A DNA stretch of 64,000 nucleotides from a virus, in the IMG/VR virus record IMGVR_UViG_3300019776_000564, positions 44,019-108,018 of that record. One strand, written 5' to 3'. Numbering within the stretch: the stretch's first letter is position 1; each line of letters starts with the position of its first letter. The notes beneath the pieces are model-generated. The model made no database searches, was not told the origin of the DNA, and saw nothing but the letters and a program-made list of their open reading frames with translations. The position numbers and the translations under genes are program-made. Of this stretch, positions 43,854 through 53,197 are shown piece by piece.

Positions 43854-43910
43854 CTGCATAATAGACGCTGATTTGACGCAAACAACATCCATTCAAACAG
43901 GTTGGAAAAC

Positions 43911-45989
43911 ATGGATCGCATTCAACGCATTGCCATTATGAGAGAGGCGATTACCAAAATCGCCCAGATCCTCTCTGACGGCAAAGTTCTCGTAACTCAG
44001 TCAGGTGTTAAGGCGTTCGTTAAGTACGACGAGCGCACTATGAAAGCAACTCGCGTCAACTTGCCAATGATCCCGGATGACGCAAGTGACGAACTGATTG
44101 AAGCTGTTCAGGGCTTTCTTGACAGCGAGATCTCCAAAGTCCTCTATGCGGACGGCAAGTCCAACCTGCGTGCTGCGCACGAAAACATGGCCTCGCTGTA
44201 CAACCCGCTTGAGTCCTTCTTTTGCGAGAAGGAAATGGTCAAGAACTTCCAGGGTTCTCGCCATAACCTCGCAAACATGCACCAGACTTTCGTGGACAAG
44301 TTCATCACGCCACGACTGAAAGAAGCTCTCGCTAATGGCGCAGAAGAGCAAGAGCTTTTCCAAGTTCTCGCAGTTCCCGCATTGCGAGCGTGGGGCGGCC
44401 AAAAGTTCTTCCAAGACTACATGAGCGATAAGTGGTCTCTGATCGCCGGCATTCAGAAGCAGCTTGATCCGATTGCCAAGAAAATGCAGACCATGACCAA
44501 AGCGTCTGACTGCTATGACATGGCGAAGCAGATTCGCAATGTCGTAATGGGTGAGCCGCCTGAAGGTGATGGTGACAACCCGTTCGGTGATGAAGATCCG
44601 AGCAAGAAAGGTGGCGGTGGCGGTAAAGGTAGCAGCGGTAAAGGTGGCAAGGGTGGTAAAGGCGCCCCTCCACCAAAAGCTAACAAGGGCAAAGGTGCAG
44701 GTGAACTAGGCGACGAAGAAGAGTCTGAAGAAGACGAGGACGAAGAGTCTTCGGGTGGCCCGGGCGAGAAGTCTGAAGAAGACGCAGACGCAGAAGACGG
44801 CTCCGGCGTCGAAGATGATGACGACCTGGAAGAAGACGAGGAAGGTGAAGACGGCGAAAAGCCCGACCCTCGTAAAGAAGACGCCCAATCCGGTGCCGAC
44901 GGTCAGTCCAATCAGCAAGAGCGTGAGAAAGGTACTGAAGATACCGAGTCCGCTCAAGCCGATTACGGCGGCGCGAACTTCATGAAGGACTTCGACTGGG
45001 ACAAGGTTCAGGACATCGGCACTGAATTTGGTCAGTACGTTACCGATCTGTGCTCGACAGAAATGGATAACGAGGACTACACGGTCTTTACTCGCGAGTG
45101 GGATCAGCTTGAGCCTCCAAAAATCCCATCGAGCTACAGTCCGAAGTGGCTCGATGACCTCGAAAAGTCAATCGCTGGTATGGTTGGCCCTGTTGCGCGT
45201 CAGCTTGAGCGTGCTTTTGCCGCACGTAACAAGTCTCTGACTCAGCAAGGTCTTCGTAAAGGCAAGCTGTCTTCCAACAATCTGTATCGTCTGACCGCTG
45301 GTGACGATCACATTTACAAGAACAAGATTGAGCACAAGACCCGAGAAATTGCTGTGTCTCTGGTCATCGACTGCTCCGGCTCTATGGGTGGTTCCAAGAT
45401 CCATACTGCAATGTGCTCAGCGTGGGTGCTTGCTGATGTTCTCGGTCGACTCGGCGTCGATTGCGAGATCATGGGCTTCACTACTGGCGACCTGTACGCT
45501 CAGCGGTCTAAAGACCTGTACAAAGAAATGTGCGACGCAAGTAATGCCGGCCGTGAGTTCGACCGCTGTGAGCCGTTGCGACTTCCTCTCTTCAAGAGCT
45601 TCCAAGAGAAGTTCTCGATTGAGGTCAAGAAGCGAATGGCGAGTTACGCTCACGTTCAGTCTTCTATGGCGAGCAACATTGACGGCGAGTCCGTTCAATA
45701 CGCCTATGAGTCTCTGTGTCGCCATGCAAACAAGGGTAAGCGTAAAGGCAAGATGATGATCGTCTTCAGCGACGGTCAACCTGCAGGCGGCGTAGACAGT
45801 CGTAAGCTGAACGCCCACTTGAAGGCTGTGGTGAATCGAATCGAGAAGGACGGCACTAACATTGTTGGTGTAGGCATTATGTCCAACTCTGTCCAGCATT
45901 TTTACCGCAAGAACGTCAAGCTGGATAACGTTGCTGAGCTGCCGGGCATCGTCCTCAAGCAACTCCGGGACGCTCTGCTTTCCGCTTAA
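43911..45989 (+). CDS. CobT-like VWA-domain protein
   Basis: 692 residues from ATG 43911 (a TTG at 43902 would add three). N-terminal helical domain, then a Gly/Lys and Asp/Glu-rich linker (about 225-340), and a C-terminal VWA domain with the MIDAS motif DCSGSMGGSK and later SDGQPAGG. CobT is one subunit of aerobic cobaltochelatase, but phage copies paired with a CobS-like AAA+ occur without other cobalamin genes and are thought to form a MoxR/VWA-type remodelling complex. The partner is at 46085. Confidence 0.87.
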   Translation: MDRIQRIAIMREAITKIAQILSDGKVLVTQSGVKAFVKYDERTMKATRVNLPMIPDDASDELIEAVQGFLDSEISKVLYADGKSNLRAAHENMASLYNPLESFFCEKEMVKNFQGSRHNLANMHQTFVDKFITPRLKEALANGAEEQELFQVLAVPALRAWGGQKFFQDYMSDKWSLIAGIQKQLDPIAKKMQTMTKASDCYDMAKQIRNVVMGEPPEGDGDNPFGDEDPSKKGGGGGKGSSGKGGKGGKGAPPPKANKGKGAGELGDEEESEEDEDEESSGGPGEKSEEDADAEDGSGVEDDDDLEEDEEGEDGEKPDPRKEDAQSGADGQSNQQEREKGTEDTESAQADYGGANFMKDFDWDKVQDIGTEFGQYVTDLCSTEMDNEDYTVFTREWDQLEPPKIPSSYSPKWLDDLEKSIAGMVGPVARQLERAFAARNKSLTQQGLRKGKLSSNNLYRLTAGDDHIYKNKIEHKTREIAVSLVIDCSGSMGGSKIHTAMCSAWVLADVLGRLGVDCEIMGFTTGDLYAQRSKDLYKEMCDASNAGREFDRCEPLRLPLFKSFQEKFSIEVKKRMASYAHVQSSMASNIDGESVQYAYESLCRHANKGKRKGKMMIVFSDGQPAGGVDSRKLNAHLKAVVNRIEKDGTNIVGVGIMSNSVQHFYRKNVKLDNVAELPGIVLKQLRDALLSA

Positions 45990-46084
45990 TTCCCATTGAA
46001 CGCCCAGTTGTGAGCGTAGAAAATACGCTCACTTTCAAACGTTACATAGAAACACTTCAACCATTAGATAGAGAGGATTCACAA

Positions 46085-47314
46085 GTGAGCAACGACAAAA
46101 TCAAGTGCCAGATCTGCGGCGAAGAAGTACACAGCATCGCTAACCACCTCAAGACTGCGCACGGTGAAGACTCCGAAACCCCGATGGATCTGGAAGCGTA
46201 CCGTGCAGCATACCCTGGCGCTGATCTGCTCTCTGAAACCGCCAAGAAGAAAATGGCTGAAATGAAAGCCAAGCGTGAAGCTGAAGAAGCGAAAACCGCC
46301 TCTGCTGCTCCAGCGCCAGGTTCCAAACCTGCTCAATCGGGCGACCCGGATGTAGAGCAAGTGTTCTTCCACGAAGCCTTCCGCTTCCCGAAAAGCACGA
46401 AGTCTGCTCTGACCAAATCGGGCAACGGCATTCCTTGCACTGCTGACGCTCGTAAGGGTGGCGATGACGAGCACATGGTTCCAGCGTGGTCTGACAACTA
46501 CATCCTTAACCCCGATCTGACCAAGACCGTCATGATGGCAATGGAACTTCGCACGCCGATCTTCCTGTATGGTCACTCCGGCGTTGGTAAGTCTTCGATC
46601 TTCAAGCAAATGTGCGCTGGCTTGAACCGTCGTCTGTTCCGCTTTCAGCACACTGTCGATACCGAAGAGTCGCACATCGTTGGTCAGTGGGTCGTCAAGC
46701 CTCACATCAACCCTGATGGCTCCGCTGTATCGGTTACTGAGTTTGAACTCGGCCCGCTGCCTACTGCGATGCTGAAAGGCTGGACTTACCTCGCTGACGA
46801 AATCGACCGTTCGTCTCCGACCGTTCTGTCTGCGTATCAAGCGATCCTCGAAGGCGAGCCGCTGATCATCAAAAACGCCCCAGCGCATTTGCGAGTGATC
46901 CGCCCTCACCGTCTGTTTGCGTTCGCTGCAACTGGTAACACGAACGGTACTGGCGACCAATCCGGTCTGTACCAAGCAACTCTGACTCAAGACGCCGCAA
47001 CCATCGAGCGTTTTGGTGTAGTCGCTATGGTTGACTACCCACCAGAGAAGCAAGAGATTGCGATGATCGCCGCTGCTACTGGTCTGAACGAAGCGGACGC
47101 GAAGAAAATTCGCCAGTTCGCAGACGAGATCCGTAACAAGTCGTTCCCGAACATCGTGTCGCTGACCATCGGCCCTCGCGTTGCCATCAACATCGCTCGA
47201 ATCGGCATGATGAAAGCGGACTTCGTAGAAGGCGCAATGTACGCCTACTGCAACCGTCTGCCAGAAGCAGAGAAAGAAGCAGCGTTGGGTGTTGCGAAAC
47301 GTATCCTGAGCTGA
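46085..47314 (+). CDS. CobS-like AAA+ ATPase with N-terminal zinc finger
   Basis: 409 residues from GTG 46085 with GAGAGGA upstream; an earlier in-frame start at 46010 lacks such a site. Cys2-His2-like finger at the N-terminus (CQICGEEVHSIANHLKTAH), acidic/Ala linker, then AAA+: Walker A GHSGVGKS, DTEESHIVGQW, Walker B YLADEIDR, FAATGNT sensor and an Arg-finger region ERFGVVAMVDYPP. It pairs with the VWA protein upstream. Confidence 0.88.
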   Translation: MSNDKIKCQICGEEVHSIANHLKTAHGEDSETPMDLEAYRAAYPGADLLSETAKKKMAEMKAKREAEEAKTASAAPAPGSKPAQSGDPDVEQVFFHEAFRFPKSTKSALTKSGNGIPCTADARKGGDDEHMVPAWSDNYILNPDLTKTVMMAMELRTPIFLYGHSGVGKSSIFKQMCAGLNRRLFRFQHTVDTEESHIVGQWVVKPHINPDGSAVSVTEFELGPLPTAMLKGWTYLADEIDRSSPTVLSAYQAILEGEPLIIKNAPAHLRVIRPHRLFAFAATGNTNGTGDQSGLYQATLTQDAATIERFGVVAMVDYPPEKQEIAMIAAATGLNEADAKKIRQFADEIRNKSFPNIVSLTIGPRVAINIARIGMMKADFVEGAMYAYCNRLPEAEKEAALGVAKRILS

Positions 47315-47941: not shown

Positions 47942-50900
47942 ATGAAGAACCTATTGGGTGCAAAAACCCACTTCTCGCTTGGCGAATCAATCTACGACCC
48001 GGAAGCTCTAGTCAAAAAGGCAGAGCTTGCCGGGTATGAAGGCATTGTGGCGACGGATGTCGATTCAATCGACTCGATGCCTACTCTGTCCGGCAAGTCA
48101 AAAGGCTTGAAAGTGGGTCTTGGTGTACAGATCGCTGTAGTAGAAGACCTAAAATGGGAAGCTGCAAAGCGCGGTGAACCAAAACGAAAGCCCAACCCGG
48201 TTTTCGTTACGACCTTGTTCGTCAGAAACGAAGAAGGCTTTAAGGACATCTGCGAGCTTTTGACCCTCGCACAGTCAGAGTCCAACTACTGCTCCAAGCC
48301 TGCTCGTATGCAAATCGATATGCCGCAGCTTATCGATTTCGTATCTCGGGGCAACCTGACTATGACTCTGGGAAGCTCTTACAGCGCGCTACAGCTTAGA
48401 AAGCGCGAAGAGATCATAGACGCACTGTGCGATCATTTGGACGTCTCACAAGTCGTCTCAGAAGTCGTACCAGTTAACTCTATGTTCTATGACGCGCATA
48501 ATGCGCAGATGCTGAAGCTGAAGCTGGATCGGGGCATCGAAGGCATCATTACTCGCCCAACTCTCTATCAAAAAGGGGAGGCGAAGTTCCGAAACACAAT
48601 GAACTCCATTCTCTCCCACGACCGCGTTGATAGCGTGTTCAGACGAGAGCCTGCTGAGGATCTTCATGTTCTTGAATGCGCCGAGTTGGACTCTGAAGTA
48701 GAGCGCCTTTACGATCGTCTGGTTGCAGCCGGGTCAGATCCATTCAAGACTCAAGGCTTCTTGGAGAAAGCGTGTGAGAAGACGGAGAAGTATTTCACTG
48801 ACCATCCTTATCAGTGGAAGAAGATGGCTCCTTCTCTTCCCGTAATGTCGTCTAACCCGCGACTGGACATCATTGCGCTGTGCAAGAAAGGTTGGCGTGA
48901 GCGTCTCGGCAAAGAAGTATTTGGGTACAAGCCAGATGCTTCGATTCTTCCTGTCTATCAGGAGAGGCTTAAATACGAGCTTAGCGTTCTAAACAAGATG
49001 GGCTTTGAACCGTACTTTCAACTGGTTCACTTTATTGTGGATTGGTCTAAGAAGAACAAGATCATGGTTGGCCCGGGTCGTGGATCTGTTGGCGGTTCGT
49101 TGATCGCTTTTCTTATGGGTATCACCGACGTAGACCCGGTGAGATTCAACCTCATCTTTGAGCGATTCATTAACCCTGAGCGTATCGACTTGCCAGATAT
49201 CGACCTCGACTTTATGTCGAGCCGCCGTCAGGACATTGTTGATCACTTGGTTAGCGCCTTCAGTGAAGACTGCGTTGTCCAAATCGCCAACTACAACACC
49301 ATCGCTGGTGCCGGCGCTATTCAAGCGGTGAGCAAAGCCTATGGCCTTCATGAGAGCCAGTACGAGTGCTCCAAGCTCGTACCTAAGGAGTCTGGTGTTC
49401 CAGTTCCTCTTGAGAAGGCCGTTGCGTATGTACCCGAGCTTGAGAAGCTTGCTCTTAACCATCCTGAGGTTTGGGCAGCATCTGTAGGTCTTCAGGGCAC
49501 GTTCAAGAACTTCGCGAAGCACGCGGCAGGTGTAGTGGTTGCTGGTTGCGACATCGTTGAACGTGGCGTTGTTAACCGACGTAGCGGTGTTGGTATCGTT
49601 AACTGGGACAAGCGTGTCGTCGAAGACTTTGGTCTGATCAAGCTCGACGTACTCGGCCTGAGTAACTTGGACATTCTCAGATTGTGTCAAGATTACATTC
49701 GCGAGAGCGCCGGCATTGAGGTCGATTTCACATCGCTACCTCTTGATGACAAGAGGGTCTTGCAGTCATTCGCTGAGGGTAAAACCTACGGTGTATTCCA
49801 GTTTGAATCCGGCGGTATGCGTAAGCTACTAAAGGATCTTGGTTCTGGCGGCAACCTGACGTTCGATGACTGCGTTGCAGCAACAGCTTTGTTCCGACCC
49901 GGCCCTATCCAAGCTGGTCTGATGGATATGTATGTCGCGATCAAGAAGGAGTTTCAAGAACCCGAGTACCTTCACCCGAACATGAAAGCCGCTCTTGAGC
50001 CAACGATGTCAGTAATGGTCTATCAGGAGCAGGTAATGCAGATCTCGCGTGACCTTGCTGGGTATACATTCCCTGAGGCAGACGGTCTTCGTAAGATCAT
50101 GGGCAAGAAAGACCCTGTGAAAATGGCCGAGCAGCGAGACAAGTTCGTTGATGGCTGTATTGCAACGTCAGGTCTTGATCATGGTACGGCGACGTTCATC
50201 TTTGAGCAGATCGAAAAGTTCGCTGGTTACGGCTTCAACAAGTCCCATTCTGTGGCGTATACCCTGATCTCGTATATGACCATGTGGGTCAAGGTCTACT
50301 ATCCAGAAGCGTTCTATGCAGCCTGCTTGTCGATCTTGGACGAACAGAAACTCGCCGGTCTCGCCAAAGATGCTCAGGCTAACGATATCTACATCGTACC
50401 TCCTGATATCAACCACAGTTCCGGTCGATATGAAGTTGGCTTTGATGCTTCAAGAGGTCAAAAGATTCTGTATGCCCCATTCCAGTCAATCAAAGGCATG
50501 AGCGACAAGTCGGCATCCGCAATCGTAGAGGCTCGTAAGAAGCTAGGTAGGCCGTTCAAGAACAAAGCTGAGCTTATCCTTGAGGTAGACCGTCGCGCCT
50601 GTAATAAGCGTCACCAAGAGCTTCTGGATAAGGTTGGAGCGTTCAGTCTGATCGAACCCGGTCAGCTTCCTTCGAGACACCCGGATCGTCTTCGCGACCA
50701 AAAGGAACTGTTACCGGGTATCGTCGTTAGCAACGTAAAAGCCGAACGAGTGATCGAAATCACTGGCGCGGTAAGCGCTGAGCTTATTCAGATCGTTGAG
50801 GACTACCAGTCCAACAAGGGCTGTGACGGCTGTCCGTTTATTGGTCGAGCGCACCCACAGCCTGTCTTGGGTAAGAAACCTAAGGTGATGATCGTGTTGG

Positions 50901-51334
50901 ACGGCCCTTCCTACAAAGAGGAAGAGAAGGGTCAGATGATGGTCGGCGACACTGGCAATTTCATCAAGACGGCTTTGCAGAAAGCTGGACTCAAAATGTC
51001 CGATGTCTACGTGACCAGTTACATCAAGGCTAGAAAGCTCAAAGAGGAAGAGATTGAGAACACCACTGCCAACGGTTGTGGCAAGTTCTTGCAGCGGGAA
51101 ATTGAACTGCTGAAACCTCCGGTCATTGTAGCTTTGGGCAGCAAGTCTGTAAGACAGCTTGTGCCGGATATCAAAGGAGGCTGGGAAGAGAACTGCGGCA
51201 AGTCTTTCTTCGATCCTAAAACAGACTGCACCGTAGTTTCTGGCTTCAATCCGGCAATGATCTGCTTCGACGGAGCCAAGCAGTCACTTCTTGACGCGGT
51301 ATTCAAGCAAGTAGCCGACATATTCGACTTATAA
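47942..51334 (+). CDS. dnaE: DNA polymerase III alpha subunit fused to UDG-like domain
   Basis: 1130 residues. A PHP-like N-terminus (THFSLGESIYDPEALVKKAE; ATDVDSID) has lost the usual His ligands, so it is probably inactive. Family C polymerase core: GRGSVGGSLIAF, PDIDLDF with the catalytic Asp set (418-424), FRPGPIQAGLMDMY, QEQVMQISRDLAGYTFPEAD and GYGFNKSHSVAYTLISYMT. The usual C-terminal clamp/tau-binding part is replaced from about 960 by a family-4-like uracil-DNA glycosylase domain (CDGCPF; MIVLDGPSYKEEEKG; VGDTGNFIKTALQKAGL; VIVALGSKSVRQLV). The usual Cys and His of that domain are partly changed (see findings). Confidence 0.92.
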   Translation: MKNLLGAKTHFSLGESIYDPEALVKKAELAGYEGIVATDVDSIDSMPTLSGKSKGLKVGLGVQIAVVEDLKWEAAKRGEPKRKPNPVFVTTLFVRNEEGFKDICELLTLAQSESNYCSKPARMQIDMPQLIDFVSRGNLTMTLGSSYSALQLRKREEIIDALCDHLDVSQVVSEVVPVNSMFYDAHNAQMLKLKLDRGIEGIITRPTLYQKGEAKFRNTMNSILSHDRVDSVFRREPAEDLHVLECAELDSEVERLYDRLVAAGSDPFKTQGFLEKACEKTEKYFTDHPYQWKKMAPSLPVMSSNPRLDIIALCKKGWRERLGKEVFGYKPDASILPVYQERLKYELSVLNKMGFEPYFQLVHFIVDWSKKNKIMVGPGRGSVGGSLIAFLMGITDVDPVRFNLIFERFINPERIDLPDIDLDFMSSRRQDIVDHLVSAFSEDCVVQIANYNTIAGAGAIQAVSKAYGLHESQYECSKLVPKESGVPVPLEKAVAYVPELEKLALNHPEVWAASVGLQGTFKNFAKHAAGVVVAGCDIVERGVVNRRSGVGIVNWDKRVVEDFGLIKLDVLGLSNLDILRLCQDYIRESAGIEVDFTSLPLDDKRVLQSFAEGKTYGVFQFESGGMRKLLKDLGSGGNLTFDDCVAATALFRPGPIQAGLMDMYVAIKKEFQEPEYLHPNMKAALEPTMSVMVYQEQVMQISRDLAGYTFPEADGLRKIMGKKDPVKMAEQRDKFVDGCIATSGLDHGTATFIFEQIEKFAGYGFNKSHSVAYTLISYMTMWVKVYYPEAFYAACLSILDEQKLAGLAKDAQANDIYIVPPDINHSSGRYEVGFDASRGQKILYAPFQSIKGMSDKSASAIVEARKKLGRPFKNKAELILEVDRRACNKRHQELLDKVGAFSLIEPGQLPSRHPDRLRDQKELLPGIVVSNVKAERVIEITGAVSAELIQIVEDYQSNKGCDGCPFIGRAHPQPVLGKKPKVMIVLDGPSYKEEEKGQMMVGDTGNFIKTALQKAGLKMSDVYVTSYIKARKLKEEEIENTTANGCGKFLQREIELLKPPVIVALGSKSVRQLVPDIKGGWEENCGKSFFDPKTDCTVVSGFNPAMICFDGAKQSLLDAVFKQVADIFDL

Positions 51335-51402: not shown

Positions 51403-52572
51403 ATGCCCACAGAAGTAAACGATATTGACGAATTGGAAAGCCTTCTCTCTGGCTTGAGTCCCGATGAACTCGGCCAGTTGGATGAACTGGACGGTCTTGA
51501 TGACCTAAGCGGTCTGGAGGAGCTTGACGCGCCCCCTGCCGAACCAGTCGCAGCAAAGCCAACTCGCAAGCGTCGTCTCAAGCCTCTCAAAGAAGAACCC
51601 GAAGAGCCTGAACTGTCGGCTCTGAACGTTGACACCGCTACGGGCAAAGTCACCAGTGACGACCCGGAAGTAAACGGTGACGACGATCTCGCAGCTTTGG
51701 CTGATCTCGACGAGAAACCTGAAAGCAAGCCGGTGAGCGATCCGAACCTGCTCGCTGAGCAGGTAATCGAACTGATGGTAAAAATTCCAGAAGAGTTCGG
51801 CTGCTCGACGGAAGAAGACTACATGGAAGTCTTCGGCTCAGTGCTTTCTGATATCGACGCAAGTTCGACTATCGAAGGCATCGAAAAGAACATGCGCGCA
51901 GCATTCGAGGCGAAATTCGGCAAAGCAGTTGATCCTGCTGAAGTCGAAGTCGAGAAGGTTGCTGAGAGCACCGAAGAGGTCGAGAGCAAGGCTCTGGGTG
52001 ATCAGGAACAAGAACTCGATGAACTCCTGGCCGGCGTTGAAGCTGCACCGACTCCAAAACCTGTAGTGACTGCACCAGTTAAACCCGTTGCAGTAACCCC
52101 TACAAAGAAAGTTGGTCAACTCAACACGTTCATCGACGCCGACCAGCTTCAGCGCGACCTGCATTTCACTGAAGCTACCATCAATGACGGCATGACTCGT
52201 CAAGCGGCTCTGTTCGCTCACTACGCTCGCCTGTCGGCCGACGCCACTTTCCAGGCTGATCGGGCAAAACAACAGGTTGAGTTGTTGGAAGCAACGTTGA
52301 ACCAACGTTTCCGTGACTCGCTCGTAGCGTCCGGCACCAAGTTCACTGAAAAGTCCATCGATGCGATGGTTATTCAGGACAGCAGCTATCAGGCCGCTCA
52401 AGAGCGTGCCCATGAAGCGAAAGCCATCGCTTCTATGGTTGCATCTGCGGCGGACAGTTTCCGTCACCGCAAAGATATGTTGATCCAAGTGGGCGCAGAC
52501 CTGCGACTGGAAAAACAGGGTGAACTTCGCATGAAGGAGCACCCGGGCCAGCGTGCTGTTGAAAATATGTAA
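51403..52572 (+). CDS. Acidic protein with C-terminal helical domain
   Basis: 389 residues. N-terminus is a run of LDELDGLDDLSGLEELD, very like the last 15 residues of the ssDNA-binding protein at 53355. A low-complexity acidic part follows (to about 115), then a small helical segment (LLAEQVIELMVKIPEEFG). The C-terminal domain from about 240 (FIDADQLQRDLHFTEATIND; YAQ-type long helices) is a helical, DNA-metabolism-looking module of unknown family. Confidence 0.65.
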   Translation: MPTEVNDIDELESLLSGLSPDELGQLDELDGLDDLSGLEELDAPPAEPVAAKPTRKRRLKPLKEEPEEPELSALNVDTATGKVTSDDPEVNGDDDLAALADLDEKPESKPVSDPNLLAEQVIELMVKIPEEFGCSTEEDYMEVFGSVLSDIDASSTIEGIEKNMRAAFEAKFGKAVDPAEVEVEKVAESTEEVESKALGDQEQELDELLAGVEAAPTPKPVVTAPVKPVAVTPTKKVGQLNTFIDADQLQRDLHFTEATINDGMTRQAALFAHYARLSADATFQADRAKQQVELLEATLNQRFRDSLVASGTKFTEKSIDAMVIQDSSYQAAQERAHEAKAIASMVASAADSFRHRKDMLIQVGADLRLEKQGELRMKEHPGQRAVENM

Positions 52573-52589
52573 AGACGATTCAAAACCTG

Positions 52590-52621
52590 CCAAGCTCGAT
52601 TAACAACCGAGCTTGGCTTTT
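52590..52621 (+). terminator. Terminator
   Basis: CCAAGCTCG and CGAGCTTGG with a 9-nt loop followed by CTTTTT. Confidence 0.9.
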
Positions 52622-52645
52622 TCGTTAGCAAATCAGGAGTTTCAA

Positions 52646-53197
52646 ATGGATCTGATTACCGTTGGTTGTGTGGGAACTGTTGCTATTGCCGCAGCAGCAA
52701 CCGTCATTTACGTTGAACGTAAGGTGCGCAGCACGGTCAAGCCGCCCGCCAAAGCGGAACCTGTTAAAGCAGAGCCTGTTAAAGCAGAGCCTGCGGTCAA
52801 CAGTGAAGCCAAGCAAAGCTTTAACCGGCAAACGAGTTCGCCAGTAAGCAAGCAAAACCCCGTTCCCAAAAGCGGCGAGTCGACTCAAAGGCAGCGCATG
52901 GACGAGTTACGGCGCGAGCGTGAACGCGATGAGGAAGACCGTCGTCGCCGTGATGATGACTACTACGAGCAGCAACGGCGCCGTATGAATGACGAGGTTA
53001 CTCGCCAGCAAATGGTAGATACCTCACCGTCCCCGGCTTCTCACTCTACTCATCATCACTCTCACAACCGTCATGACGACAGTCCTTGCAATAGCTCTCG
53101 TCATGACGGCAGCAGTTCGTGGGGCGGTAGCTCGTCTGATTCGGGTAGCCCTTCTTGCAGTTCCGATTATGGTAGCAGCAACTACTCAAGCGACTGA
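52646..53197 (+). CDS. Membrane-anchored Ser/His-rich protein
   Basis: 183 residues from ATG 52646 with AGGAG upstream. N-terminal membrane segment (ITVGCVGTVAIAAAATVIYV), triplicated KAEPV repeat, then a long charged Arg/Glu/Asp helix (RMDELRRERERDEEDRRRRD) and a tail of Ser/His/Gly (HSTHHHSHNRHDD; GSSSWGGSSSDSGSPS). Looks like many phage and bacterial short membrane proteins with low-complexity tails; function unknown. Confidence 0.65.
   Translation: MDLITVGCVGTVAIAAAATVIYVERKVRSTVKPPAKAEPVKAEPVKAEPAVNSEAKQSFNRQTSSPVSKQNPVPKSGESTQRQRMDELRRERERDEEDRRRRDDDYYEQQRRRMNDEVTRQQMVDTSPSPASHSTHHHSHNRHDDSPCNSSRHDGSSSWGGSSSDSGSPSCSSDYGSSNYSSD

Follow-up and report, generated by a model that had tools for sequence, protein, structure and literature searches.

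A family C DNA polymerase of a Nickievirus-like phage with a probable pseudo-uracil-DNA glycosylase domain in place of OB and CTD

The dnaE gene of a Nickievirus-like phage encodes a C-family DNA polymerase with a complete PHP-Pol3-HhH core, followed by a domain predicted to adopt the uracil-DNA glycosylase (UDG) fold in which the uracil-site residues are replaced; by these residues the domain is probably a pseudo-UDG that has lost base excision. The window analyzed here, 64,000 nucleotides in length, comprises bases 44019-108018 of a 108,018-base virus record, the source being a 108-kb Nickievirus-like phage, and the gene lies in it as a single open frame with an ATG start. We propose, tentatively and at somewhat less than an even chance, that the protein is the phage's own replicative polymerase and that the pseudo-UDG, in the place of the OB and C-terminal (CTD) domains, serves as a non-catalytic DNA-holding module. 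The features on which the argument draws are listed in window coordinates.

47942..51334, plus strand: DnaE-UDG fusion of 1130 amino acids, C-family replicase of a Nickievirus-like phage; one frame, phrog_405 over residues 5-1128
47942..48751, plus strand: PHP domain, residues ~1-270, metal-binding residues lost (Pfam PHP, 9.4e-8, at 8-121; alignment with an intact relative; column counts)
48875..50164, plus strand: polymerase palm and fingers, residues 312-741 (Pfam DNA_pol3_alpha and finger; alignments)
50387..50653, plus strand: helix-hairpin-helix domain, residues 816-904 (Pfam HHH_6, 4.6e-14)
50699..50713, plus strand: putative beta-clamp-binding motif QKELL, residues 920-924 (motif counts in 98 homologues; position)
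50789..51331, plus strand: predicted UDG-fold domain, residues ~950-1130, in the place of OB and CTD (profile, alignment and fold matches)
50822..50854, plus strand: C961, C964 and H971 of the proposed CCHC site (present in 55 of 55 members having C1046)
50900..50902, plus strand: D987, which stands where family-4 enzymes have the motif-A Glu (GEAPG); Asp in 98 of 98
51017..51031, plus strand: S1026, where family-4 UDGs have the Asn that reads uracil, and A1030, where they have the third Fe-S Cys (Asn 0 of 98, Cys 0 of 98)
51077..51079, plus strand: C1046, equivalent of the fourth Fe-S Cys (family alignment)
51248..51253, plus strand: N1103-P1104, replacing HP of the motif HPS/HPA (His 0 of 98)

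Along the protein, Pfam matches follow one another in the order PHP (9.4e-8), DNA_pol3_alpha (1.2e-67), finger (6e-51), HHH_6 (4.6e-14) and UDG (1.8e-13, residues 978-1082). The NCBIfam polc superfamily model scores 598 bits against a cut-off of 434, and the catalytic aspartates D419, D421, D423 and D569, together with K567, are invariant in aligned homologues. No Pfam match to the C-terminal OB and CTD typical of DnaE1 was found in the window DnaE, in which the UDG match comes directly after HhH. A family C fusion of this kind had seemed unfamiliar when the gene was first read, yet the architecture was published in 2013: Timinskas et al. (PMC3919608), citing Aravind and Koonin 2000 for the UDG, described, for some strains of Yersinia pestis and Salmonella enterica, an additional polymerase in which OB and CTD are replaced by an archaeal-type UDG domain (PF03167). 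The window DnaE shows the replacement that defines their DnaE-UDG variant, and shares its PHP-Pol3-HhH-UDG architecture with this DnaEX, which is of SSU5 type; the passage of that paper on DnaEX contains no active-site analysis of the UDG. The architecture itself being known, the new points are a uracil site lost throughout the family, a CCHC pattern and a comparison with fusions in which the motifs are retained.

The C-terminal domain is confidently predicted to have the UDG alpha/beta fold, nearest to family 4. The NCBIfam type-4 UDG model matches residues 960-1122 at E 2e-18, with family-4 scores below the curated cut-offs (64.7 against 125.3 bits; 66.5 against 250 bits), and sequence matches of the domain in the PDB are family-4 UDGs (4e-12). 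An AlphaFold model of residues 906-1130, made from 64 sequences (pLDDT 92.2, pTM 0.86), finds its best PDB fold matches in the family-4 UDGs of T. maritima, S. tokodaii and T. thermophilus (E 1e-13 to 1e-11, TM by target 0.81-0.84; individual matches include 1l9g at E 1.8e-13 and 1ui0 at TM 0.84 by target), then in UdgX, with MUG and TDG among the weaker matches. A model of the full-length protein (pLDDT 88, pTM 0.72) finds bacterial Pol III alpha ahead of family-4 UDG among its matches, and its confidence is low in a hinge at 930-935. The similarity extends through the family, as NCBIfam family-4 UDG models match 64 of 64 diverse members and Pfam UDG 63 of the 64.

These Pfam, NCBIfam, PDB and AlphaFold matches bear out the original prediction of a full family C polymerase core and a family-4-type UDG layout in one uninterrupted frame. 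That the UDG similarity arose by chance, or that two genes were joined by sequencing error, is a negligible prospect: the many significant, independent profile and fold matches lie far beyond chance, and 97 homologous loci run continuously through Pol and UDG in the same single frame, which rules out a frameshift, two genes or an assembly-error fusion. Five homologous loci are interrupted, each within the polymerase and none at the UDG junction.

The active site was compared across 98 continuous family members, 31 of which were also aligned with 38 stand-alone family-4 UDGs. Structures of family-4 UDGs have established that a Glu, a Phe, an Asn and a His make up the uracil site; at these positions the window domain has D987 (motif A), M1000 (stacking Phe), S1026 (uracil-reading Asn) and N1103 (motif B). 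The motif-A Glu, present in 38/38 stand-alone enzymes, is Asp in all 98 fusion proteins. The stacking Phe (again 38/38) is mostly Leu, Gly, Met or Ser in the family, with Phe in 5 of 98, and the uracil-reading Asn (38/38) gives way to Thr, Ala, Ser, Gly or Trp, with Asn in none. The motif-B His occurs in all 36 stand-alone proteins that reach this motif and in none of the 98 fusions, where Asn (79), Ser (14), Ala (3) and Lys (2) are found; the third Fe-S Cys is likewise missing from all 98 and is Ala (A1030) in the window. The earlier reading of the motifs, with CxxC at 961/964, LDGPS for GEAPG, KAR for KCR and NPA for HPS, was correct. In sum, the window domain resembles the family-4 UDGs of T. 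maritima, T. thermophilus and S. tokodaii in fold and best sequence match but, unlike them, has three of the four Cys and none of the Glu, Phe, Asn and His.

The loss of Glu, Phe, Asn and His together argues against excision and also against sensing of uracil through that pocket. With the catalytic residues replaced across the 98 homologues, the original suggestion that excision may be lost is probably right, and judged by its residues, annotation of the tail as a uracil-DNA glycosylase appears misleading. The companion suggestion, a domain that senses uracil, fares worse, the stacking Phe and reading Asn having gone along with the catalytic residues. Such a sensor would bind template uracil without cutting and stall the polymerase, as archaeal family-B polymerases do. 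UDG ancestry and a place adjoining the polymerase would suit this role, and UdgX, a family-4-like protein, is able to bind uracil-DNA tightly; neither a dUTPase nor a second UDG was found in the phage record, which is weak evidence since the record may be a fragment. We nevertheless consider a sensor very unlikely. The uracil-reading Asn is absent in 98/98 and the stacking Phe is lost in nearly all, the KRRIH loop of UdgX with its covalent His is absent from the window domain when aligned to UdgX, and ordinary T-DNA is to be expected given the ThyA and putative thymidylate kinase genes of the related phage nickie.

The Asp at D987 needs separate consideration. Being Asp in 98/98, this position is under constraint, and the old active site, with D987 fixed, may still do chemistry or bind something, which counts against a purely DNA-holding role. 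Furthermore, NPA alone is no proof of inactivity, since Asn-Pro-Ser is the natural motif B of family-2 (MUG/TDG-type) enzymes. These observations, and the appearance of MUG and TDG among the weaker fold matches, would suit a glycosylase that uses D987 and N1103 for an altered chemistry or on a different base. However, family-2 enzymes require Asn in motif A (GINPG), and the corresponding position here is Ala, Cys, Asn, Gly or Ser and unconstrained; the motif-A proline is Ala in 7/98, and N1103 is replaced by Ser, Ala or Lys in 19/98. An altered glycosylase is on this evidence improbable.

At the opposite end of the protein the PHP domain has lost its metal ligands as well. Where an intact relative has HLHVHS, TDH and GVE, the window DnaE has LGAKT, TDV and GVQ, and column counts across the DnaE-UDG family found no conserved His columns at these sites, in agreement with the early impression that the PHP proofreading site looks inactive. 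A DnaQ-like exonuclease is encoded separately from DnaE in the phage record.

Between HhH and the UDG domain the family has the consensus D-Q-x-E-L-[LM]-P-G, which reads DQKELLPG in the window with the Gln at 920; the Gln is replaced in a minority of the 98 homologues. By sequence and position, QKELL is a putative beta-clamp-binding motif, the internal clamp motif of E. coli DnaE lying in the same place, between HhH and the C-terminal module. A beta clamp gene was not found in the phage record, an absence that is weak evidence as the record may be a fragment; taken at face value, it means that a host clamp would be needed.

The remnants of the Fe-S site follow a pattern of their own. C961, C964 and C1046 are all present in 55 of the 98 members, H971 accompanies them in 55/55, and the remaining 43 have lost the set as a whole. 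No His stands at the H971 position in the family-4 UDGs aligned, the alignment being gappy between C964 and motif A. An Acinetobacter plasmid member outside the 98 counted reads CNGCDLAGQVHP and NGCSPHL. On the polymerase-core tree the Cys/His state changes ~5 times, with at least 3 changes forced by well-supported branches; the independent pairs for co-occurrence number 3, too few for a significance test. The pattern suggests that a CCHC metal site has taken the place of the four-Cys cluster in half of the family.

The UDG domain is under strong purifying selection and is clearly kept, with no decay. Its dN/dS for the window against Nican01 or L015 is 0.03-0.07, compared with ~0.04 in the polymerase core, and PHP is higher at 0.10-0.15; near-saturation of synonymous sites makes these ratios rough. 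Among 64 diverse C-terminal regions, 7 columns do not vary. The net charge of the window domain is ~0 and the family median -1.5, versus +3 for stand-alone family-4 UDGs. A neutral domain speaks mildly against strong DNA binding and is the main counterpoint to a DNA-holding role; it would fit better a pseudo-UDG that stands in for the CTD as a protein-docking module, tying the polymerase to the DnaB helicase, the gp32-like SSB, DnaQ or the host clamp loader without contacting DNA. The replacement of the CTD as well as the OB points the same way, as do the helicase, primase and SSB that nickie has of its own and the low-confidence hinge at 930-935, which suggests a tethered domain. We think docking rather unlikely as the domain's role, in that no partner protein has emerged and the retained residues take in old active-site and loop positions (D987, K1029, P1104) and form no obvious outer patch.

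The genes surrounding dnaE belong to replication and consist of MoxR and CobT-like VWA proteins upstream and a gp32-like SSB, a 5'-3' exonuclease and RecA downstream; nickie encodes DnaB, primase, ligase and RNR besides its ThyA and putative thymidylate kinase. The CobT-like VWA protein and MoxR-type AAA ATPase (window 43902-47314) adjoin dnaE, and the pair recurs beside dnaE in several related phages, where it is annotated as cobaltochelatase or porphyrin biosynthesis; a MoxR-VWA chaperone pair is the more likely identity. Two ORFs follow dnaE at 51403-53197, one belonging to phrog_1069, a PHROG of unknown function, and the other, of no family, carrying KAEPVKAEPV repeats and a Ser/His-rich tail.

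Further DnaE-UDG fusions occur in phages, plasmids and viral contigs. The nearest named relatives are the Pseudomonas phages Nican01, ZY21, phiK7B1 and nickie (84% identity over the whole protein) and hairong (74%), followed by Rhizobium, Stenotrophomonas and SSU5-like phages at 36-42%, all full-length; matches over 80% or more of the window DnaE occur in 30 phage records, and more than 80 viral contigs have the architecture. Plasmid records matching the UDG domain number 1037, the weakest being ordinary UdgX/UDG genes on megaplasmids; 892 match over most of the domain, and the majority of these are ~110-kb plasmids from Klebsiella, Escherichia, Acinetobacter and Enterobacter. Of the 80 best loci in bacterial genomes, just 11 carry a fusion of the window type. 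The DnaE of Salmonella phage SSU5 belongs to the same clade (36% identity over full length), but it has lost all three Cys and H971, which the window lineage retains, and has a ~60-aa polymerase insert. The literature searched held nothing useful on nickie or SSU5 in connection with a UDG-bearing DnaE. A seemingly longer match, MT836494 (MT836494.1, from the phage collection), was set aside, its DnaE lacking UDG motifs and its neighbour genes, phosphofructokinase-like and glutamate racemase-like, looking bacterial.

Insertions in dnaE recur at one spot in the polymerase fingers (window residues ~734-744), among them L182:4724-5344 and L007:3861-4562, and also in L026, L102 and L104. The insert in A. 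baumannii pA1296_1 is a NUMOD4 gene and that of L007 is an ORF looking NUMOD4/HNH-like; strain XL380 (L183) has no insertion at this site, and the ~60-aa insert of SSU5-type proteins falls there. An RNA intron at the insert was rejected for L182, L007, L026, L102, L104 and L089, none giving an Rfam match.

Four DnaEs carry a C-terminal family-4 UDG with Glu, Asn, His and four Cys intact.

L107:1406-4894, intact-motif DnaE-UDG fusion
L249:4983-8381, intact-motif DnaE-UDG fusion
L250:3-3239, intact-motif DnaE-UDG fusion
L251:4974-8396, intact-motif DnaE-UDG fusion

L107 is a metagenome-assembled bin labelled Brevinema with phage-like neighbours, and the other three are viral contigs; the L107 protein alone as query had no match in viral_contigs, where an alignment-based search did find matches. 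No description of intact DnaE-UDG fusions was found in the literature searched. Like the window protein they join a C-family polymerase to a C-terminal UDG, but they keep the Glu, Asn and His, all four Cys and, wherever the N-terminus is complete, the PHP His residues. These intact fusions in other phages, the link of H971 to the three Cys and the putative clamp motif were absent from the original prediction. A single origin of all DnaE-UDG fusions is rejected on the polymerase tree (AU test p 0.0014), owing to L251, while a group of the window clade with L107, L249 and L250 is not (p 0.64), p values that are indicative, the groups having been named after the first tree was seen. L251 seems to have a separate origin. 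One possible history is that the fusion was intact at first and degenerated later in the lineage of the window, L251 having arisen by a fusion of its own; loss or swapping of domains could also produce this pattern.

The UDG-like domain of the SPO1 family A polymerase, mentioned in the original prediction, is indeed present, N-terminal, and has counterparts in other family-A phage polymerases. They resemble the window protein in fusing a UDG-like domain to a phage replicative polymerase, and differ in polymerase family, in the N-terminal place of the domain and in the motif-B His, kept in 8/8 tabulated. SPO1 has lost the Cys residues, Phe and Asn and kept the His, whereas ctfzr933 keeps all site residues; the phiLo polymerase has a solved structure (9qhs). 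N-terminal UDG-like domains of this kind were seen at L184-L188 and L190-L192, and at L189, whose annotated start seems too late, on phage family-A polymerases including SPO1, phiLo, ctfzr933 and Yersinia P744. Their site loss is at various stages, and several of their neighbours are pyrimidine-modification genes.

A precedent for a UDG within a viral replicase is vaccinia D4, which differs from the window domain in being glycosylase-active, in forming a separate subunit linked through A20 and in belonging to a different UDG family. D4 slides on DNA and serves the polymerase as a processivity factor, and the need for its catalysis is disputed (PMC10253040). In the DNA-holding role that we favor, the C-terminal OB and CTD have been swapped for a UDG domain, now without catalytic and uracil-binding residues, that may still grip DNA and slide along it as UDGs do. 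Together with the clamp-binding motif adjacent upstream, the pseudo-UDG could hold template ssDNA or fresh duplex during synthesis as a substitute for the OB, and in half of the family metal binding by C961, C964, H971 and C1046 (zinc or an altered Fe-S cluster) would stabilize the fold at the site of the former four-Cys cluster. This proposal is consistent with the confidently predicted fold, its conservation under selection, the replacement in 98 homologues of residues that stand-alone family-4 UDGs keep, the joint presence (55) and joint loss (43) of the CCHC residues, and a D-Q-x-E-L-[LM]-P-G motif just ahead of the domain in a phage record with no clamp gene found. A wider reading, possible though we hold it as doubtful, is that in this phage and phage-plasmid replicase lineage a base-excision-repair enzyme became a permanent non-catalytic DNA-holding domain, replacing OB/CTD and exchanging a four-Cys Fe-S cluster for a CCHC metal site, and that, with the separate UDG fusions of other C- and A-family phage polymerases, it marks a recurrent evolutionary route to processivity.

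The plasmids that bear C-family replicases with a UDG tail, ~890 in number and mostly of ~110 kb, come in many cases from clinical Klebsiella, E. coli and Acinetobacter, and the tail is currently annotated as DNA polymerase or uracil-DNA glycosylase. A comparison of the intact with the degenerate versions allows the order in which residues were lost to be read. Should the domain hold DNA, it would be a second viral UDG recruited into a replicase, beside poxvirus D4, in a system simple enough for in vitro testing. The loss of residues and the apparent new metal site suggest that the replication machinery has taken over a repair fold as one of its components.
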